Assembly (NCBI GenBank): GCA_902773895.1
Contig: CACYGB010000005.1
Span: 1 to 51,095 of the forward strand
Length of the DNA: 51,095 nucleotides
Direction of reading: 5' to 3'
DNA from: an uncultured Eubacteriales bacterium
GTDB taxonomy: Bacteria; Bacillota; Clostridia; Christensenellales; Aristaeellaceae
In this document: piece by piece, positions 25,862 to 33,312 of the stretch
Position numbering within the stretch: position 1 is the first letter of the stretch
Layout: the number at the start of each line of letters is the position of its first letter
Notes under the pieces: model-generated
Database searches by the model: none
Told to the model about the DNA's origin: nothing
Seen by the model: the letters and a program-made list of their open reading frames with translations, nothing else
Program-made: the position numbers and the translations under genes

Positions 25862-26458
25862 TCAGGCCTGCCGGTCCGTGCGGCGGAGGATGACGATTTC
25901 CCGTTCAGCCGGTTCACCCATGGCGTAGTCCGCCTTGTCCGTCCGGTTCAGCAGGTCATAGCGCACGGCGCGGTTCATCTGTTTGGGAAAGCCCGTCACC
26001 ACCCGGCGCCCCGCTTCCCGGAAATCCGGGTCCTCGGCGTAGGGGTCAAACAGGCCGATCTCCCCGTGGGGCAGCACCGCCGTCAGCAGCACGTAGTGGG
26101 GAATTTCTCCGGCGTAGCACCGCATCACGGCGCAGCCGCCCTCTTCCAGCGCGGCCCAGACCCTGTTGCCCGGAGCGACCGCCGCGTCCCCGTCGCAGAG
26201 AAATTCCGCGTCCACCGGAAAGCGGCAGTTCCGGCCGTATTCCCGCAGCCAGTCCGCCATATACCGCATGGAGGCCCGGGAGGTGCCGCGGCAGCCCGGG
26301 CCGCCCTTCTCGCAGCAGGTGTCGTTGCCCATGATCCAGATGCGCTGGAGCATGCCGGGCTGGATTTCCTCCCGTTCGTACAGGAAACGGAGGGCGTTCA
26401 CCAGGCAGGTGGGGCCGCAGTCGTATTCCGAGGACTGATGGATCAGGTCGTTTTTCAT
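25862..26458 (-). CDS. C39-like cysteine peptidase family protein
   Basis: 198 residues. The N-terminal SSEYDCGPTCLVNALRFL has the nucleophile Cys and helix of the papain-like C39/C39-like superfamily. HYVLLTAV (about 121-128) and LFDPYAEDP (about 135-143) supply the expected His and Asp. A CCEKGGPGC cluster lies at about 48-56. There is no signal peptide, transporter domain or membrane segment, so it acts in the cytosol. It starts 21 bp after oppC and is the last gene of the peptide-uptake operon, so it could cleave imported peptides. No bacteriocin-like precursor is nearby. Confidence 0.7.
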   Translation of the reverse strand: MKNDLIHQSSEYDCGPTCLVNALRFLYEREEIQPGMLQRIWIMGNDTCCEKGGPGCRGTSRASMRYMADWLREYGRNCRFPVDAEFLCDGDAAVAPGNRVWAALEEGGCAVMRCYAGEIPHYVLLTAVLPHGEIGLFDPYAEDPDFREAGRRVVTGFPKQMNRAVRYDLLNRTDKADYAMGEPAEREIVILRRTDRQA

Positions 26459-26479: not shown

Positions 26480-27322
26480 TTATTCATTCCGGGGGTCGAA
26501 GGCGTCCCGCAGGGCGTCGCCTACAAAATTGATGCACACCACCAGCAGGATGATCACCGCGCCGGCAGGCACCCACAGCCAGGGCTTTCCCGTCAGCACC
26601 GACAGGGATTCGGCACCGTTGAGCAAATTGCCCAGGGACGGCGTGGGCGGCTGCACGCCCATGCCCAGGAAGGACAGGGCCGCCTCGTCCAGAATGGACA
26701 GGGCGAACACGCTGGTGGCGTATACCAGCACAGGCGCCACGGTGTTGGGCAGGATCTCGGAAAACAGGATATAGCGCCGGGGCATGCCGGCGGTGACGTC
26801 GCTTTTGACGAAGTTGGTTTCCCGCAGGCTCAGCACGTTGCCCCGCACCAGCCGGGTGACGCCGGGCCAGTCCACAAAACCCAGGATCAGGATGATGGAT
26901 TCCATGCCGGGCTGGAAAATGGCGGCGGCCACCAGCACCAGCAGGATGTAGGGGAAGGACATCACCATATCGGTAAAGCTCATGATGGCCTTGTCCAGCG
27001 GGCCGCCGAAATAACCGCTGACCAGGCCCAGGATGACGCCGATGGCGGTGGAAATCAGCGTGGCCAGAAAGCCCACCAGCAGGCTGACGCGCATGGCGTA
27101 CAGGATGCGGCTGAGCATATCCCGGCCGATTTTGTCGGTGCCCAGCCAGTGCTCCGCCGAGGGAGGCTGGGAAAATTTGCCCGTGGGTTTTGTGGGGGAG
27201 TAGGGGGAAATCCAGGGCGCCAGCACGGCCAGCAGGATCAGCACCGCCAGCACCGCCAGGCAGGCCACGGCCATTTTGTGCCGGGAAAAACGCCGGATGA
27301 TCAGCTTCGTTTGTCCTTTCAA
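26480..27322 (-). CDS. oppC: Peptide ABC transporter permease, OppC/DppC type
   Basis: 280 residues with an N-terminal membrane segment, the extracytoplasmic LGTDKIGRDMLSRILYA motif typical of OppC/DppC, five further membrane segments and the EAA-loop region TAGMPRRYILFSEILPN. The start is a TTG at 27322, 8 nt after GGAGG, giving LKGQTKL; no ATG in frame has a better site. The gene begins about 13 bp after the oppB stop. It pairs with OppB as the translocation pore. Confidence 0.94.
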   Translation of the reverse strand: MKGQTKLIIRRFSRHKMAVACLAVLAVLILLAVLAPWISPYSPTKPTGKFSQPPSAEHWLGTDKIGRDMLSRILYAMRVSLLVGFLATLISTAIGVILGLVSGYFGGPLDKAIMSFTDMVMSFPYILLVLVAAAIFQPGMESIILILGFVDWPGVTRLVRGNVLSLRETNFVKSDVTAGMPRRYILFSEILPNTVAPVLVYATSVFALSILDEAALSFLGMGVQPPTPSLGNLLNGAESLSVLTGKPWLWVPAGAVIILLVVCINFVGDALRDAFDPRNE

Positions 27323-27335
27323 GCGCGGCGCCTCC

Positions 27336-28280
27336 TCAGTATTTGATGGTGGGATCCACCAGGGCGTACAGCAGGTCGGTCAGCAGGTTGGCCGCCAGCA
27401 CCACCACGGCGGAAAGCAGGCACACGCCCATGATCACCGGGTAGTCCCGGCTCATGACGGCGCTCATGGTCACCAGCCCCAGCCCCGGCCAGGAAAACAG
27501 CTGCTCCACGATCACCGCGCCGCCAAAAAGCGTGGGGATCTGCATACCGATCACCGTCACGATGGGCAGCAGGGCGTTGCGCAGCGCATGCTTGCGGATC
27601 ACGATTTTCTGCCCCATGCCCTTGGCCCGGGCGGTGCGCAGGTAATCCATTTCCAGGATTTCCAGCACGGCGGACCGGATGTAGCGGATGTTGCCGCCGG
27701 CAACGCCTACCGCCAGCACCAGCGACGGCATGATCAGATGCCGGATCACGTCCATGGCGTCGCCGCCGGTGCCGGGGGTGTACATGCCGGAGGAGGGCAG
27801 CCAGCCCAGCCGCACGGTGAAGAAATAAATCAGGATCAGGGACAGAAAGAAGCCCGGCACGCTGGAAAACAGGAAGGAGGCGGACACCACGGCGTAGTCC
27901 CGTTTCTGATACCGGTGCACGGCGCTGTAAATGCCGGCGGGAATGGCGATGAGCAGGCCCAGGACCATGGAAACGCCCATCAGCAGCAGGGTCGGCCCCA
28001 GGTGGCTGCCGATCAGATCCGCCACCGGCTGATAGCTTTTGTAGGAATAGCCCAGGTTGCCGCGCAGCAATTCCATCAGCCAGTTCCAGTACTGTACGTA
28101 AATGGGCTGATCCAGCCCCCATTGCGCGGCCCGGGAGGCCAGTGCCGCTTCGCTGACCCGGGGGCCCACCATCATGTCCAGAGGGCTGCCCGCCAGGCTC
28201 ATGATGGCGTAATCGATGATGGTGATGCCCAGCAGCACCGGCAGGGCCAGCAGCAGTTTTTTTAACGCGTATTTCCACAT
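27336..28280 (-). CDS. oppB: Peptide ABC transporter permease, OppB/DppB type
   Basis: 314 residues, six membrane segments. It begins MWKYALKKLLLALPVLLGIT, as typical for OppB/DppB, and has the EAA loop TARAKGMGQKIVIRKHALRN and FSWPGLGLV. GGGAGGG lies 8 nt upstream of the ATG at 28280. It follows oppF by 4 bp. Confidence 0.95.
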   Translation of the reverse strand: MWKYALKKLLLALPVLLGITIIDYAIMSLAGSPLDMMVGPRVSEAALASRAAQWGLDQPIYVQYWNWLMELLRGNLGYSYKSYQPVADLIGSHLGPTLLLMGVSMVLGLLIAIPAGIYSAVHRYQKRDYAVVSASFLFSSVPGFFLSLILIYFFTVRLGWLPSSGMYTPGTGGDAMDVIRHLIMPSLVLAVGVAGGNIRYIRSAVLEILEMDYLRTARAKGMGQKIVIRKHALRNALLPIVTVIGMQIPTLFGGAVIVEQLFSWPGLGLVTMSAVMSRDYPVIMGVCLLSAVVVLAANLLTDLLYALVDPTIKY

Positions 28281-28284
28281 GCCG

Positions 28285-29256
28285 TTATCCCTCCCACGCC
28301 CTGGTGCACACGGAAAAATGCTCCGGCGCCACGGGCTGCATGTCATCCTGAAAGCGCAGGCATTCCGCGTTTGCCCGGGGGCAGCGGTGATACAGCGGGC
28401 AGGCGCCCTCCGGCGCTTTCTCCTCAATTTCGCCCTTCAGCACATCCCGGGGACGGTACCGGTCCTCCGCGTCGGCGGCAGGCGCGGCGTCCAGCAAGGC
28501 CTTGGTGTAGGGATGGGCCGGATGGTCGAACAATTCCTCCGACGGGCCGATTTCCACGATCCTGCCCCGGTACATCACCGCGATGCGGTGGCTGATGTAG
28601 TGCACCGCGCCAAGGCCGTGGCCGATGAACACGTATGTCAGCCCCAGCCGTTCCTGCAGGTCCCGGAGCAGGTTCAGAATCTGCGCCTGCACCGACACGT
28701 CCAGCGCCGATACGGGCTCGTCCAGCACCACCACGTCGGGGTTCAGGCTCAGCGCCCGGGCGATGCAGATGCGCTGGCGCTGGCCGCCGGAAAATTCGTG
28801 GGGATAGCGGTTTTTCATTTCCGCCGGCAGCCCCACCATGGACAAAAGCGTTTCCAGCCGCGCTTCGGGCTGGCTGTCCGCCCGGTGGTACCGCATGGGC
28901 TCCAGCAGGATGTCCCGCACCTGTTTGCGGGGGTTCAGGGAGGAGCCGCTGTCCTGAAACACCATCTGGAATCGGGGCCGCAGCTTCCGCCGCTCCTTTT
29001 CCGGCAAGGTGTCCACCCGCTGTCCCCGGAAGTACACTTCGCCCTGCGTGGGCTTTTCCAGGCACATCAGCAGCCGGGCCACGGTGGATTTGCCGCAGCC
29101 CGATTCCCCCACGATGCCGAAGGTTTCGCCGGGACGTACGGAAAAGGACACGTCCTCCACGGCGCGGAATGTTTTTTTGCTCAGGCTGTTTTCCCCGGCT
29201 AAGCGGTACGCCTTCGATAGGTGCCGGCATTCCAGCACCGGTTCGTTACCCGTCAT
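28285..29256 (-). CDS. oppF: Peptide ABC transporter ATP-binding protein, OppF/DppF type
   Basis: 323 residues. Walker A GESGCGKSTVAR, signature FSGGQRQRICIARAL, Walker B VVVLDEPVSALD, and the C-terminal OppF region with cysteines (CPLYHRCPRANAEC) that bind an iron-sulfur cluster in related transporters. Two key positions differ from the usual motif: the H-loop reads IGHGLGAV rather than ISHDL, keeping the His. The ATG overlaps the oppD stop (ATGA). Confidence 0.95.
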   Translation of the reverse strand: MTGNEPVLECRHLSKAYRLAGENSLSKKTFRAVEDVSFSVRPGETFGIVGESGCGKSTVARLLMCLEKPTQGEVYFRGQRVDTLPEKERRKLRPRFQMVFQDSGSSLNPRKQVRDILLEPMRYHRADSQPEARLETLLSMVGLPAEMKNRYPHEFSGGQRQRICIARALSLNPDVVVLDEPVSALDVSVQAQILNLLRDLQERLGLTYVFIGHGLGAVHYISHRIAVMYRGRIVEIGPSEELFDHPAHPYTKALLDAAPAADAEDRYRPRDVLKGEIEEKAPEGACPLYHRCPRANAECLRFQDDMQPVAPEHFSVCTRAWEG

Positions 29257-30227
29257 CGCGCGCCTCCTTTCACCAGGCACCGGGAATAATGGCCTGGGCT
29301 CACTTCCTGCATCGCAGCCTGCTCCCGGTACGGGCAATCCGCCTTCATGGGGCAGCGGGGGGCGAAGCGGCAGCCCGTCATGGCGCCGTATTCCTGGGGA
29401 ACGCGGCCGGGGATGGCGTACAGCAGGCGGCTGCGGTCGTCGTGCAGCCCCGGCACGGCCTGCATCAGCGCTTTCGTGTACGCGTGGGCGGGATGGGTCA
29501 GCAATTCCTTCAGGGGCGCTTCCTCCACGCACTGGCCGGCGTACATCACCACCACCCGGTCGGCCATTTCGGCCACCACGCCGATGTCGTGGGTGATCAG
29601 CAGGATGGACATACCTGTTTCATCCCGCAGGGAACGCAGCAGCTCTATGATTTGGTACTGGATGGTCACATCCAGCGCCGTGGTGGGTTCGTCGGCAATC
29701 AGCAGCTTGGGCCGGCAGCTCAGCGCCATGGCGATCATCACCCGCTGGCGCATGCCGCCGGACAGCATGTGCGGGTATTTTTTCATGACCTGGGCTGCGT
29801 CCTGGATGCCGGTGCGCTCCAGCAGGGACACGGCTTCCCTCCAGGCTTCCTCCCGGCCCAGGCCCCGGTGGCGGCGCATGCCTTCGGTCATTTGCGTGCC
29901 GATGGTGAATACCGGGTTCAGGCTGTACATGATGTCCTGAAAGATCATGGCGATGTCCACGCCCCGGATGCTGTCCAGATCCCGCTCGGGCAGTGTCAGC
30001 AAATCCTTCCCTTCAAACAGGATCTTTCCGCCGGTGACCTTGCCCTGGCGGCTCAGCAGGCCCAGAACGGACAGGGCGGTGATGCTTTTTCCGCTGCCGC
30101 TTTCGCCTACCACGCACAGGATTTCCCCGGGCATCACGTGAAAGGATACGCCGGAGGCAGCGGCGGAAAAGCCCTTTCCCTGGCGGAAAGCGATGTTCAG
30201 ATCCTGGATGGAAAGCAAAGGCTCCAT
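29253..30227 (-). CDS. oppD: Peptide ABC transporter ATP-binding protein, OppD/DppD type
   Basis: 324 residues. Walker A GESGSGKSITAL, Q-loop FQDIMYSLNPVF, signature LSGGMRQRVMIAMAL, Walker B LLIADEPTTALD, H-loop ITHDIGVV and the C-terminal oligopeptide-transporter extension with CRFAPRCPMKADCPYR. GGAGG lies 8 nt upstream of the ATG at 30227. It pairs with OppF and is coupled to it by a 4-bp overlap. Confidence 0.96.
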   Translation of the reverse strand: MEPLLSIQDLNIAFRQGKGFSAAASGVSFHVMPGEILCVVGESGSGKSITALSVLGLLSRQGKVTGGKILFEGKDLLTLPERDLDSIRGVDIAMIFQDIMYSLNPVFTIGTQMTEGMRRHRGLGREEAWREAVSLLERTGIQDAAQVMKKYPHMLSGGMRQRVMIAMALSCRPKLLIADEPTTALDVTIQYQIIELLRSLRDETGMSILLITHDIGVVAEMADRVVVMYAGQCVEEAPLKELLTHPAHAYTKALMQAVPGLHDDRSRLLYAIPGRVPQEYGAMTGCRFAPRCPMKADCPYREQAAMQEVSPGHYSRCLVKGGAR

Positions 30228-30266
30228 GCTGTCGGCCTCCTGTTCAGGGCAGCGCCTGCCCCGCAT

Positions 30267-30309: not shown

Positions 30310-31890
30310 TTACTGAATATCCCAGTCCTGCACGTTGAGGAAGGTGCCGAACACGTCGGGATGGGCGTTGACCAGGCGGTTGCTAACCGCGCCCAGCTTG
30401 CCGATCACCCAGCCGGAAATCACGGGGGCGTCCTGCTGCATGGCGCGGTTCACGATCAGGTACTGCTCCGTGATGGCCGCGCTGTCGGTCAGGCTCTGGC
30501 TCAGGGCCAGGGCGTCGTCGGTGGCGGGGCTGGTGTAGCCGGTCCACAGGCTCTGGCCGCCGATCAGCCACGCGATGTCGGTGTAGGGATCGGCGGGCAT
30601 CAGGGTGTATTCCACGCTCAGGATGTCGTGCTGGCCTTCGTCCACCACAGCCATCAGGTTGGCCAGGTCCACGGTGCGGATGTTGATCTTCAGGCCGATT
30701 TCCTCAAACATGGCGGCGAAATACTGCACCGCGTTGCCCCACACGCTTTCCTCGGCGCTGACGTACCAGGTCAGCTCGGTGGAGGCGCCGTCGGCCTTGG
30801 CCTGGGCAATCAGCTGCGCGGCCTTTTCGGGATCATAGGCGGTGACGCCCAGATCCTGGCTGAAATACGGGGAAGCGGGCACCAGGAAACCGTCCACCAC
30901 CGTGCCAAAGTCGCCCAGCAGGTTTTCCTGCATGCCGACACGGTCCATGCCGTACAGCAGGGCCTGGCGGATGCGGACGTCGGTCACCTTGGCCACGTTG
31001 ACGAAGATCAGTTCGTTGGTCACGGGGGTGCTGGGCACGGCCAGCACGTTGGGCAGCGCTTTCACGGCGTCATAGTCCTCCACGGGCACGGCGCCGGTGG
31101 TCTGCTGGATCAGGTCGATTTCCCCGCTCTGCAGCCCGGACAGCATCTGGGAAGGCGCCACCACGTTCAGGTTCAGGTACTTGATTTTGGGCGCGCCCAG
31201 GAAATAATGTTCGTTGGCTTCGTAATGCACGTAGTGCTGCAAATCAAAATCATGGATGAAATAAGGGCCGGAGATCACATCGGGATGGTTGAACCATTCG
31301 TTGGTCAGCAGGGTGTCCCGGGCCACATCCTTGAGCACATGCTTGGGCAGGATCAGGGCATAGCGGCCGAAATTGTTTTCAAAGGTGGACAGCGCGGTGG
31401 GATACTTGGTTTCCACGGTCAGGGTCTTGTCGTCCACCACCCGGATGCCTTCGATGGCTTCGGCGTTGGGCTCAATGACGCCCTCGTCGCTGACGCCCAC
31501 GATGGAGTACATGGCCAGGGAAATGTTGGCGCACTGGGGGTCGGCGCCCAGCACCAGGGTGAATTCCACATCCTGGGCGGTGATGGGGGTGCCGTCGCTC
31601 CACACGGCGTCGTCCCTCACCTTGATGGTGAAGTGCTGGTTATCCTCCGTGGTGATGGATTCGGCGATCACCGGCACAAAATTCAGCTGGCTGTCGGCCT
31701 CCACCAGGGACTGGAACACCAGGGACGTGGCGTACTTGACGATTTCGGTGGCGTCCATGGCCAGGGGATTCAGGGTGGCGATGGTGCTGGTGATGCCCAC
31801 GTTGACGGATTTTTCGTCCTCTGCGGCGGCAAAAAGGGATCCGCTCAGCAGCAGGGCGGCCGCCAGGACCAGGGAAAGCAGTTTCTTCAT
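30310..31890 (-). CDS. oppA: Peptide ABC transporter substrate-binding protein (SBP_bac_5)
   Basis: 526 residues. A Sec signal (MKKLLSLVLAAALLLSGSLFAAA) is followed by a family 5 solute-binding fold: LNPLAMDATEIVKYATSLVFQ, VKYATS-type N-terminal lobe, DDAVWSDGTPITAQDVEFTL, and LMPADPYTD near the C-terminus. The usual lipobox Cys is replaced by Ser (SGSL instead of SGCL), so it should be released after signal cleavage rather than lipid-anchored. The ATG at 31890 has GGAGA 7 nt upstream. It lies 15 bp after the M20 gene. It binds peptides or similar small molecules; the ligand is not predictable. Confidence 0.92.
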   Translation of the reverse strand: MKKLLSLVLAAALLLSGSLFAAAEDEKSVNVGITSTIATLNPLAMDATEIVKYATSLVFQSLVEADSQLNFVPVIAESITTEDNQHFTIKVRDDAVWSDGTPITAQDVEFTLVLGADPQCANISLAMYSIVGVSDEGVIEPNAEAIEGIRVVDDKTLTVETKYPTALSTFENNFGRYALILPKHVLKDVARDTLLTNEWFNHPDVISGPYFIHDFDLQHYVHYEANEHYFLGAPKIKYLNLNVVAPSQMLSGLQSGEIDLIQQTTGAVPVEDYDAVKALPNVLAVPSTPVTNELIFVNVAKVTDVRIRQALLYGMDRVGMQENLLGDFGTVVDGFLVPASPYFSQDLGVTAYDPEKAAQLIAQAKADGASTELTWYVSAEESVWGNAVQYFAAMFEEIGLKINIRTVDLANLMAVVDEGQHDILSVEYTLMPADPYTDIAWLIGGQSLWTGYTSPATDDALALSQSLTDSAAITEQYLIVNRAMQQDAPVISGWVIGKLGAVSNRLVNAHPDVFGTFLNVQDWDIQ

Positions 31891-31905
31891 GGTCATTCTC
31901 CTTTT

Positions 31906-33036
31906 TTATTTTGATCCTGCCCTTTCCAGGGCCAGTTCAGCAAAGAAACGGGCTGCGCCCGGCAGCGCCGCGGGGTCCGCGGTGAAGCGCGGATGATGGT
32001 TGGGGAAGCCCCCGCCTGTGCCGATGCGGATGAACGCGCCCGGCGCGTAGGCCAGGTATTCGCTGAAATCCTCGCCGCCCATGGTGTTGTCCTGCCGGTC
32101 CACCCGGAAGCCCAGCCGAAGGGCGGTTTCCCGGGCGGCGGCGCACAGGGCGGCGTCGTTGATCACCGGAGGCGGCCCCACAGTGAAGGAAACCAGGGCC
32201 TGGCAGCCGTGGGCCTGGGCGATGGAATGAGCCATGGCTTCCAGCTGCTGCCGCAGGCGGAGGCGCAGATCCTCCCGCAGGGTGCGCAGGGTGCCTTCCA
32301 GCAGCGCTTCCTCCGGCACCACGTTCCATGTGGTGCCTGCCTGCAGGTGGGTAACGGACAGCACGGCCGGCTCAAAGGCGTCCTTGTTCCGGGTGATGAG
32401 GGTTTGAAGGGACAGCGTCAGGGTCGCGGCGGCAGGAATGGGGTCGATTCCCAGGTGGGGGTTGCCGGCGTGGGCGCCTTTGCCCAGGATGCGCACGGTA
32501 AAGGTGTCCGGCGCGGCCATCACGGGGCCTTCCTTGATGCCCAGCGTTCCCGCAGGAAAGCCGGGATAGGTGTGGCCGGCGTAGTATTCCTGCACGTCGG
32601 CAAGCGCCGGGGACGCGGCCAGGAATTTTCCGCCGCCGCCGTCGGAAAGCTCCTCGCCCGGCTGGAACACGATTTTCACCGTGCCGGCCAATTCGTTTTC
32701 CCGTTCCTTCAGCAGCAGGGCGGCGCCCAGCATGCAGGTGGTATGGAAATCGTGGCCGCAGGCGTGCATTTTGCCTTTCTCCTCCGAGGCGTAGGGCAGG
32801 CCCGTTTCCTCCTGTACCGGCAGAGCGTCCATGTCCGCGCGGAGCCCGATGGTTTTTCCGGGTTTCTTTCCGCGGATCACGGCGATCAGCCCGGTGCGCA
32901 GGCCGGAGGGCAGCAGGTCAATGCCGGCCTGTTCCAGCGCCTGGCGCACCTTCTGCGTGGTGCGCGTTTCTTCGTATCCCAGCTCCGGATGCCGGTGCAA
33001 ATCCTGGAAGAAGGCAATCAGCTGCTGCTCAGTCAC
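31906..33036 (-). CDS. M20D-family amidohydrolase (N-acyl amino acid deacylase / aminoacylase type)
   Basis: 376 residues, cytosolic. It has the M20 motifs LRADMDALPV, HACGHDFHTT (metal ligands), PGEE (general base), a lid domain (about 170-290) and GGEDFSEY. Members deacylate N-acetylated amino acids or cleave small peptides; Bacillus YxeP and YtnL act in salvage of S-modified cysteines. The start is the GTG at 33036 with AGGAGG 8 nt upstream. It is the first full-size gene of the operon, directly after the Cys/Met-rich leader and its terminator, which suggests sulfur-compound salvage. That link is inference. Confidence 0.93.
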   Translation of the reverse strand: MTEQQLIAFFQDLHRHPELGYEETRTTQKVRQALEQAGIDLLPSGLRTGLIAVIRGKKPGKTIGLRADMDALPVQEETGLPYASEEKGKMHACGHDFHTTCMLGAALLLKERENELAGTVKIVFQPGEELSDGGGGKFLAASPALADVQEYYAGHTYPGFPAGTLGIKEGPVMAAPDTFTVRILGKGAHAGNPHLGIDPIPAAATLTLSLQTLITRNKDAFEPAVLSVTHLQAGTTWNVVPEEALLEGTLRTLREDLRLRLRQQLEAMAHSIAQAHGCQALVSFTVGPPPVINDAALCAAARETALRLGFRVDRQDNTMGGEDFSEYLAYAPGAFIRIGTGGGFPNHHPRFTADPAALPGAARFFAELALERAGSK

Positions 33037-33054
33037 CGCGAATCCTCCTGTAAC

Positions 33055-33079
33055 AAAAAAAGCATCCCTGTGCGGATGC
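33055..33079 (-). terminator. Leader terminator ahead of the M20/opp operon
   Basis: Stem gcatcc/ggatgc (33062-33067 with 33074-33079, 6-nt loop) is followed on the minus strand by seven T (33061-33055). It lies between the leader ORF and the ribosome site of the M20 gene, with no other gene in between, as expected for an attenuator. Confidence 0.88.
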
Positions 33080-33082
33080 CTC

Positions 33083-33115
33083 CTGATTCGGATCAGAGGA
33101 GCCTGATATTCAGGC
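33083..33115 (-). promoter_or_regulatory. Mutually exclusive hairpin segments in the operon leader
   Basis: Four short segments can pair in alternative ways. CCTGA at the leader stop codon (33114-33110) pairs with TCAGG (33106-33102). ATCAG (33107-33103) can instead pair with CTGAT (33096-33092), which can also pair with ATCAG (33087-33083). The last hairpin touches the 5' arm of the terminator. This is the arrangement of a translation-controlled attenuator, but I cannot compute which fold is favoured. Confidence 0.5.
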
Positions 33116-33178
33116 CCGGCAGGCGCACCCGAAACAAGGCTGCATCATGCAGCCGCGCATACACATTTCATGCAGCAT
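33110..33178 (-). CDS. Cys/Met-rich 22-residue leader peptide
   Basis: ATG at 33178, TGA at 33110. The peptide MLHEMCMRGCMMQPCFGCAC-RA has five Cys and five Met in 22 residues. GGGGAGG lies exactly 8 nt upstream, and a consensus promoter 33 bp upstream of the start drives it. It is followed by alternative hairpins and an intrinsic terminator, then the M20 amidohydrolase and peptide transporter genes. This fits a leader peptide whose translation senses charged tRNA-Cys or tRNA-Met. The coding region also holds a perfect hairpin (33138-33154). Otherwise it could be a tiny metal-binding peptide (C-x3-C, C-x2-C-x-C). Confidence 0.75.
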   Translation of the reverse strand: MLHEMCMRGCMMQPCFGCACRA

Positions 33179-33210
33179 GGGGTGCACCTCCCCTTCAAAA
33201 AATCGCTTGC

Positions 33211-33239
33211 ATGATACCATGAATTTCCCATCCCGTCAA
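33211..33239 (-). promoter_or_regulatory. Sigma-A promoter of the leader/M20/opp operon
   Basis: On the minus strand TTGACG (33239-33234), a 17-bp spacer and TATCAT (33216-33211). The expected start near 33204 gives a leader RNA of about 150 nt to the terminator. Confidence 0.88.
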
Positions 33240-33312
33240 TAGGTTCATTGTATTTTGGGTGTTCTTGCCGGATGCCGGAAAACGAAGCGGAATAAAGAAA
33301 GGAAATCTTTCC

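Follow-up and report, generated by a model that had tools for sequence, protein, structure and literature searches.

A putative cysteine-responsive leader-peptide attenuator upstream of an M20 hydrolase and peptide transport operon in a family of Clostridia

Why would a short ORF with five Cys and five Met codons be placed between a promoter and an intrinsic terminator, directly upstream of genes for an M20 metallohydrolase and a peptide transporter? The ORF lies in a stretch of 51,095 nucleotides (hereafter, the window) that makes up contig 5 of an incomplete genome (G000, 84% complete) of an uncultured Eubacteriales bacterium. The initial annotation had placed a consensus promoter at 33239-33211, a 22-codon ORF with a ribosome site at 33178-33110 and a terminator with seven T before the M20 gene, and direct reading of the minus strand recovered each of these. 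The promoter consisted of TTGACG (-35, 33239-33234) and TATCAT (-10, 33216-33211) separated by 17 bp. The SD-like sequence AGGGGAGG was located upstream of the ATG at 33178, from which 22 codons and a TGA ended at 33110. The terminator core, GCATCC-GCACAG-GGATGC (33079-33062), was followed by T7 (33061-33055), with a predicted folding energy of -12.9 kcal/mol for the extended stem. The features of the leader region were as follows.

33227..33245, minus strand: partial dyad AACCTA-N9-TGGG over the -35 box, a possible operator and the only strict match in the window
33211..33239, minus strand: sigma-70-type promoter TTGACG-17-TATCAT, by direct reading, with similar promoters in relatives
33110..33178, minus strand: leader peptide ORF MLHEMCMRGCMMQPCFGCACRA and stop codon, kept in relatives together with its SD sequence and start codon
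33138..33154, minus strand: hairpin A inside the ORF, GGCUGC-n5-GCAGCC and then UUGUUU, from covariation
33118..33128, minus strand: segment 1, GUGCG-CC-UGCC, including Cys codons 18 and 20, from folding and covariation
33099..33117, minus strand: hairpin B, GGGCCUGA-AUA-UCAGGCUC, containing the stop codon and lying inside the antiterminator, from folding
33083..33096, minus strand: hairpin C, CUGAU-CCGA-AUCAG, from folding and relatives
33070..33080, minus strand: segment 3, GGCA-UC-CGCAC, the terminator 5' arm and loop and the partner of segment 1, from covariation
33055..33079, minus strand: intrinsic terminator with seven T, from direct reading and folding

A chance ORF was ruled out by the ORF census of the window and by rarity in simulations. 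Among the 18 SD-preceded small ORFs (15-45 aa) of the window, the leader was the sole one with at least four Cys codons. In 60 first-order simulations, SD-preceded small ORFs with at least five Cys codons arose at a mean of 0.17 per 51 kb, falling to 0.03 when a T5 run within 120 nt was included. Another SD-preceded small ORF of the window, MSKQHCNTSHWKSGCRWLFCRFS (50468, minus strand), had three Cys codons and was followed within 120 nt by a T5 run.

The leader was followed by seven genes on the same strand.

31906..33036, minus strand: M20 metallohydrolase, YxeP homologue, with a GTG start at 33036 (TIGR01891 and Peptidase_M20)
30310..31896, minus strand: SBP_bac_5 substrate-binding protein (SBP), by family models
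26480..30266, minus strand: oppD, oppF, oppB and oppC, four ABC transporter genes, by family models
25862..26458, minus strand: small protein named C39-like in the initial annotation, conserved at the equivalent position in L031 and L028

The closest solved structure to the M20 protein was YxeP (1ysj, E 1.6e-102). According to the accessible text of PMC12757645, the yxe cluster has been renamed scm, so YxeP corresponds to ScmP, and ScmP, YhaA and YtnL are N-acetylcysteine deacetylases of B. subtilis. The M20 enzyme of the window may be an N-acetylcysteine deacetylase like ScmP, and the operon would salvage cysteine from peptides or from N-acylated cysteine. The order oppD-oppF-oppB-oppC was identical in three related loci (L031, L028 and L027). 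The C39-like protein had no Pfam or NCBIfam match, and its name is that of the initial annotation.

A close M20 orthologue (67-100% identity) was present in 8 of 29 genomes of the genus, preceded by the leader ORF in six of the eight, and strong matches to a leader profile were likewise obtained in 6 of the 29, the leader being retained as the sequence diverged. Two close relatives, G006 and G025, kept the promoter and terminator while lacking the leader ORF, and the switch is therefore not universal. Weak profile matches in the genus (23, E ≥ 0.0115) showed no leader-like ORF in the 15 inspected, and the L062 locus ended at a contig end. Across the 308 genomes of the family, the profile at E ≤ 0.01 matched 12 genomes, of which 11 held leaders and one (G079, L069) did not.

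Relatives of the SBP occurred at 44 places in 43 of the 308 family genomes (E ≤ 1e-120), and the upstream regions were read at 42 of these, the other two places starting at a contig end. The initial annotation had proposed to look for Cys codons and a terminator in homologous operons; a leader with 3-7 Cys codons was found in 18 of the 42 regions, and a terminator-like hairpin stood behind all 18 (17 by script, G234 by hand). Promoter and terminator without the leader ORF were seen at four loci (G006, G025, G003 and G011), and neither the leader nor the promoter/terminator pair at 20, including G204, G235b and G284, which end at a contig end (G204 inside M20) and therefore do not count as absence. 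In all, 24 of the 42 loci lacked a Cys leader, three of them being contig-end cases. In G274, G275, G277 and G074, the leader lay directly before the SBP gene with no M20 gene between, indicating that the leader goes with the uptake operon and not with M20 alone. Within the 18 leaders, the last Cys lay 1 to 9 residues before the stop, and an (M/I)-C-M core was common to 14. The leaderless loci L007, L008, L081 and L082 kept promoter and terminator, with the terminator loop CGCGC versus CGCAC. Leaderless relatives could serve as a natural deletion series for the switch.

A covariance model (R1) trained on ten sequences, and blind to downstream genes, was run over the 308 Clostridia genomes of the family. 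Its 11 best matches outside the training set (E ≤ 1.3e-4) were all Cys leaders with a terminator, none being rejected, and preceded M20 (three, the loci of G211, G212 and G232, already known beforehand), metQ (three), an SDF symporter (three) and SBP_bac_5 (two). Weaker matches of R1 and its successor R2 added cysK twice and further metQN. Matches were dropped if reading the site revealed no SD-preceded Cys ORF with an antiterminator and a terminator: 12 of 41 R1 rows (G064, G093, G172, G239, G290, G281, G061, G184:C230, G194, G289, G154 and G115), 9 of 46 rows in a later round (G104, G288, G070, G137, G304, G322, G295 and again G061 and G194) and, after reading, the order-level matches G597 and G460. 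Because acceptance depended in part on a Cys ORF, Cys counts in weak matches are biased. In total, 37 elements were accepted in the family, two of them decayed-looking (G181, with two Cys codons and no T run, and G232:C74, with no T run). Outside the family, R2 found nothing credible in 396 genomes of the order (only G000 and G018 being real) or 236 of the class, and with 10-17 candidates scored per genome this absence is weak evidence.

The first downstream gene was readable for 35 of the 37 elements and was metQ in 10, YxeP-like M20 in nine, window-type SBP in five, an SDF symporter in four, cysK, another SBP_bac_5 and a GNAT acetyltransferase in two each, and metN in one. Of these, cysK, metQ, metN and YxeP-like M20 belong to sulfur amino acid metabolism, and the targets together would form a sulfur amino acid regulon extending across the family. 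Genes were named from translation starts or BLAST, with examples checked by family models: both cysK genes scored above the TIGR01139 cut-off, two MetQ-like proteins matched PF03180, two symporters matched SDF, and MetN was the best NCBIfam family for two ATPases, below its cut-off. The Cys codons and terminator conserved at these sites, and the same element before cysK and metQN, supported the central idea of the initial annotation, that a Cys leader and a terminator here form an attenuator. In G006 and G274, cysK likewise had a Cys-rich leader in front, although the model had missed both.

The initial annotation had further proposed that local hairpins compete with the terminator. Such hairpins were present (33117-33099, with the stop codon, and 33096-33083), but the conserved antiterminator was a long-range helix in which the last two Cys codons (33128-33118) pair with the terminator 5' arm and loop (33080-33070). 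This helix (family form GUGCG-nn-UGCC / GGCA-nn-CGCAC) first became visible on folding close relatives, and it encloses hairpins B and C. A local hairpin as the main antiterminator was rejected; hairpin C occurs in close relatives, but it is the long-range helix that covaries across the set. Counterparts of hairpin B were seen in G274 and G277 (GGACC/GGUCC) and of hairpin C in G027, G015, G023, G028, G274 and G277 (CCGA/UCGG).

Covariation was weak in the first ten sequences, with one both-sided pair and 48 of 500 shuffles as good. With 29 elements, both-sided changes were found in 8 of the 15 antiterminator pairs, rising to 9 of 15 with 37 elements. At that stage 96.9% of antiterminator cells were paired, against at most 51.8% in slid controls, percentages that are inflated because the alignments were fitted to structure. 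Both-sided changed cells numbered 75 versus 24.6 in shuffles, and none of 500 shuffles reached as high. The outer pair of the antiterminator was A-U in 16 elements, G-C in 14, G-U in two and C-G in one, with three unpaired and one gap. The end base of segment 3, which covaries, sits in the terminator loop and is therefore not explained by the terminator. Antiterminator and terminator are predicted to be mutually exclusive, the former being backed by covariation. All six pairs of hairpin A covaried as well (99.1% of cells paired in 37 elements), and a pause-site-like U-rich stretch was often found 3' of it; hairpin A is probably an RNA polymerase pause hairpin.

From these parts, their conservation and covariation, the placement of the codons and the gene context, we infer translation of the leader, ribosome stalling, polymerase pausing, a switch and a response to cysteine. 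Our reading, to which we give a probability of about 0.86, is that the leader is a ribosome-mediated transcription attenuator that senses the charging of tRNA-Cys and probably of tRNA-Met. Under cysteine shortage, the leader ribosome would stall at one of the early Cys codons, C6 or C10, and RNA polymerase would probably be held at hairpin A during the stall. By leaving segment 1 free to pair with segment 3, the stall would close a junction around hairpins B and C, so that no terminator would form and M20-SBP-oppDFBC would be transcribed. With ample cysteine, the ribosome would proceed to the stop codon and cover segment 1, and the terminator would form. Only the early Cys codons can be control codons, because the last two constitute the antiterminator strand.

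Ribosome placement was modelled with the A site on each Cys codon and 10, 13 or 16 nt protected downstream in 28 elements; the other nine of the 37 were weaker or undefined. In all 28, at least one early Cys codon stalled the modelled ribosome short of segment 1, as did a mean of 2.9 out of 5.1 Cys codons with 13 nt protected, and the ribosome at the stop codon covered segment 1 with each of the three footprints. In nascent RNA, before the terminator 3' arm is made, the mean probability of the antiterminator helix was 0.75-0.81 with an early stall versus 0.61 without a ribosome, and 0 by construction at the stop. In the full RNA, the mean terminator probability was 0.72-0.79 with early stalls, 0.88 with no ribosome and 0.96-0.97 with the ribosome at the stop. 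Equilibrium thus favoured the terminator in most modelled elements even with an early stall, and the switch would therefore have to be kinetic, operating during transcription. Equilibrium folding by itself did not settle the matter. For the window, a stall at C6 gave a terminator probability of 0.02 and a nascent helix probability of 0.36; the mean nascent helix probability for C6 and C10 was 0.65 versus 0.91 for naked RNA. In G211 and G212, the antiterminator was absent from the predictions (0.0).

Cys made up 17.6% and Met 15.6% of the 972 residues of 35 leaders, counted without the start Met and without G181 and G232:C74. Leaders before metQ or metN (n = 11) had more Met (one-sided p = 2e-5) and fewer Cys (p = 0.001) than the others (n = 23), and the Met excess held by genus means (p = 8e-4), all three tests being run with no tree correction. 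The difference is blurred by genus g67, whose M20 leader is also Met-rich. Met content that tracks the downstream gene is expected from codon sensing but not from a fixed arrest peptide. The Met codons probably play a part as well, chiefly before metQN.

The same RNA switch could in principle be driven by the peptide itself. Cys and Met are soft-metal ligands, and a nascent Cys/Met peptide that bound copper or zinc, or sensed thiol redox, might arrest its ribosome. The (M/I)-C-M core of 14 of the 18 leaders fits this explanation and is conserved beyond the need of codon sensing, a point against the attenuator reading, and the binding protein of the transporter scored against the NikA and CntA models, although below their cut-offs. 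However, beyond Cys, Met and the RNA-pairing parts the peptides diverge, and a last Cys only 1 to 9 residues from the stop also tells against arrest. Downstream lie cysK, metQN and a YxeP homologue rather than metal genes, and the downstream gene predicts Met content. We consider such a sensor very unlikely. A product encoded by the ORF, such as a Cys-rich peptide precursor exported by the opp or C39-like genes, is scarcely credible. A short Cys-rich ORF does adjoin a transporter and a protein that the initial annotation called C39-like, but the transporter has a binding protein, an importer trait, and RNA structure constrains much of an ORF whose type recurs before cysK and metQN. Three leaders tested had no Pfam or NCBIfam match, and a fourth matched a RiPP model at E 0.4, well short of its cut-off. 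A RiPP precursor was accordingly dropped, with no family match above cut-off. A T-box or other Rfam RNA was also dropped; Rfam gave no match in the window at gathering score and, at E ≤ 1, none in L176 or in five further loci with the element.

A further explanation dispenses with regulation by the leader: the terminator would set a basal level, the ORF would be a by-product, and a repressor at the promoter dyad would exert control. AACCYA-N9-TRGG lies on the -35 box here, close to the promoter of cysK in this genome and also at leaderless loci, and relatives without a leader exist. A repressor alone nevertheless leaves unexplained the covarying antiterminator, the Cys enrichment and the presence of the element before many genes, and we regard it as highly improbable. 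A repressor layer and the attenuator layer may coexist.

The dyad itself occurred on or near promoters of cysK loci (L269, in the genome of the window, L271, L272 and L277) and of L007, L008, L081, L082, L124 and L128. There were 27 strict matches (about 21 sites, a palindrome counting once on each strand) within 1.09 Mb of partly overlapping loci where about 7 were expected, a weak control because the loci are enriched for these promoters. A sulfur regulator may use the dyad as its operator. The leader element was absent from the cysK locus of the window genome, which had another small ORF, MMIFAPLRPGHCWRC, and the dyad shared with the window promoter. In the genus of the window, cysK (at the four loci above) was preceded by a different conserved micro-ORF ending in PLRPGHxWRC, or similar, before the stop codon, perhaps another cysteine leader.

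In L186, L202, L208, L226, L227 and L230, another small ORF, with a core like H-x-GGV-x-DRM, lay between the terminator and metQ (examples MKHWHIGGVCDRMCAGRRRSFNNKQE and MKHFGGVLDRM, each ending at a stop codon). Three that were tested had no Pfam or NCBIfam match, and this ORF is possibly a further leader peptide before metQN. The MetQ-like proteins behind leaders (L186, L230 and other PF03180 matches) matched PF03180 in swapped order, about 98-236 and then 1-98, and look circularly permuted. GNAT-like acetyltransferases stood behind Cys leaders in G183 and G276 (L232 and L234), with a Pfam match for that of G276, and call to mind the acetylation that ScmL performs during S-(2-succino)cysteine salvage in the accessible text of PMC12757645. 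Near a contig end, G235:C98 (L200) held a near-identical copy of the M20-leader element of G232, and the end of G235:C40 (L115) held an M20 gene without its upstream region; these two ends may be neighbours.

A wider view joins these observations. The odds seem to us evenly balanced that one Cys/Met-tuned RNA attenuator family, sensing two charged tRNAs at once, runs the sulfur amino acid regulon. Its scope, for which the case could fall either way, would cover cysK, metQN, YxeP-like salvage, and peptide and symporter uptake across the whole Clostridia family. Added layers, on which we are equally divided, would be the shared promoter dyad and the second conserved micro-ORF often found before metQN, a possible further switch. 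If the attenuator reading is true, the leader could be used to predict what transporters and M20 enzymes without annotation do, and the family would offer a natural series for examining how the choice of codons determines which amino acid is sensed.

Leader-peptide attenuation has rarely been described in Firmicutes, where T-boxes are usual, as far as the accessible texts of PMC1262725 and PMC2965389 indicate. Literature on leader-peptide attenuation and YxeP gave no recognisable description of the element among the matches listed, most subscription papers being outside its scope. Polycysteine short ORFs of mycobacteria were reportedly described by Canestrari in 2020. Such ORFs are said to act by translation attenuation in M. 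smegmatis in the available part of PMC13236596, and actinobacterial Cys leaders are described as runs of Cys codons with no conserved terminator hairpin in that of PMC1262725. As in those actinobacterial and mycobacterial leaders, Cys codons here occupy a leader ORF before cysteine genes, but they are scattered and followed by an intrinsic terminator.

The uORFC-8-2 motif, found before cysS in Rhodobacterales, is a uORF with Cys codons and predicted Cys attenuation in the accessible text of PMC8632094. The two resemble each other, by that description, in having a uORF with Cys codons, two stems and a 3' U run. They differ in that uORFC-8-2 has tandem Cys-Cys at 14-15 and is described before cysS only, in Alphaproteobacteria, whereas the element reported here has dispersed Cys and Met codons, several targets and another structure; no Cys-Cys occurred in the window leader and no cysS among the 35 readable targets. 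In bacilli, His leader peptides precede hisS paralogues (PMC2965389, in the part available). These are likewise regular leader-peptide attenuators in Firmicutes, but they concern histidine and other genes, a distinction drawn from their description and not from sequence.

As in classical trp and his attenuators, the element has a leader ORF with control codons, a pause-type hairpin, mutually exclusive antiterminator and terminator, and target genes that act in the metabolism of the amino acid being sensed. Unlike them, it would sense Cys and probably Met, its outer helix pairs late codons with the terminator arm and loop while enclosing two hairpins, and it occurs in Clostridia whose genomes contain T-boxes as well (in G000 the T-box model matched 14 times, once above its cut-off). 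We conclude that this is very probably a ribosome-mediated attenuator with a new sequence and architecture, set apart from the published cysteine leaders by their descriptions.
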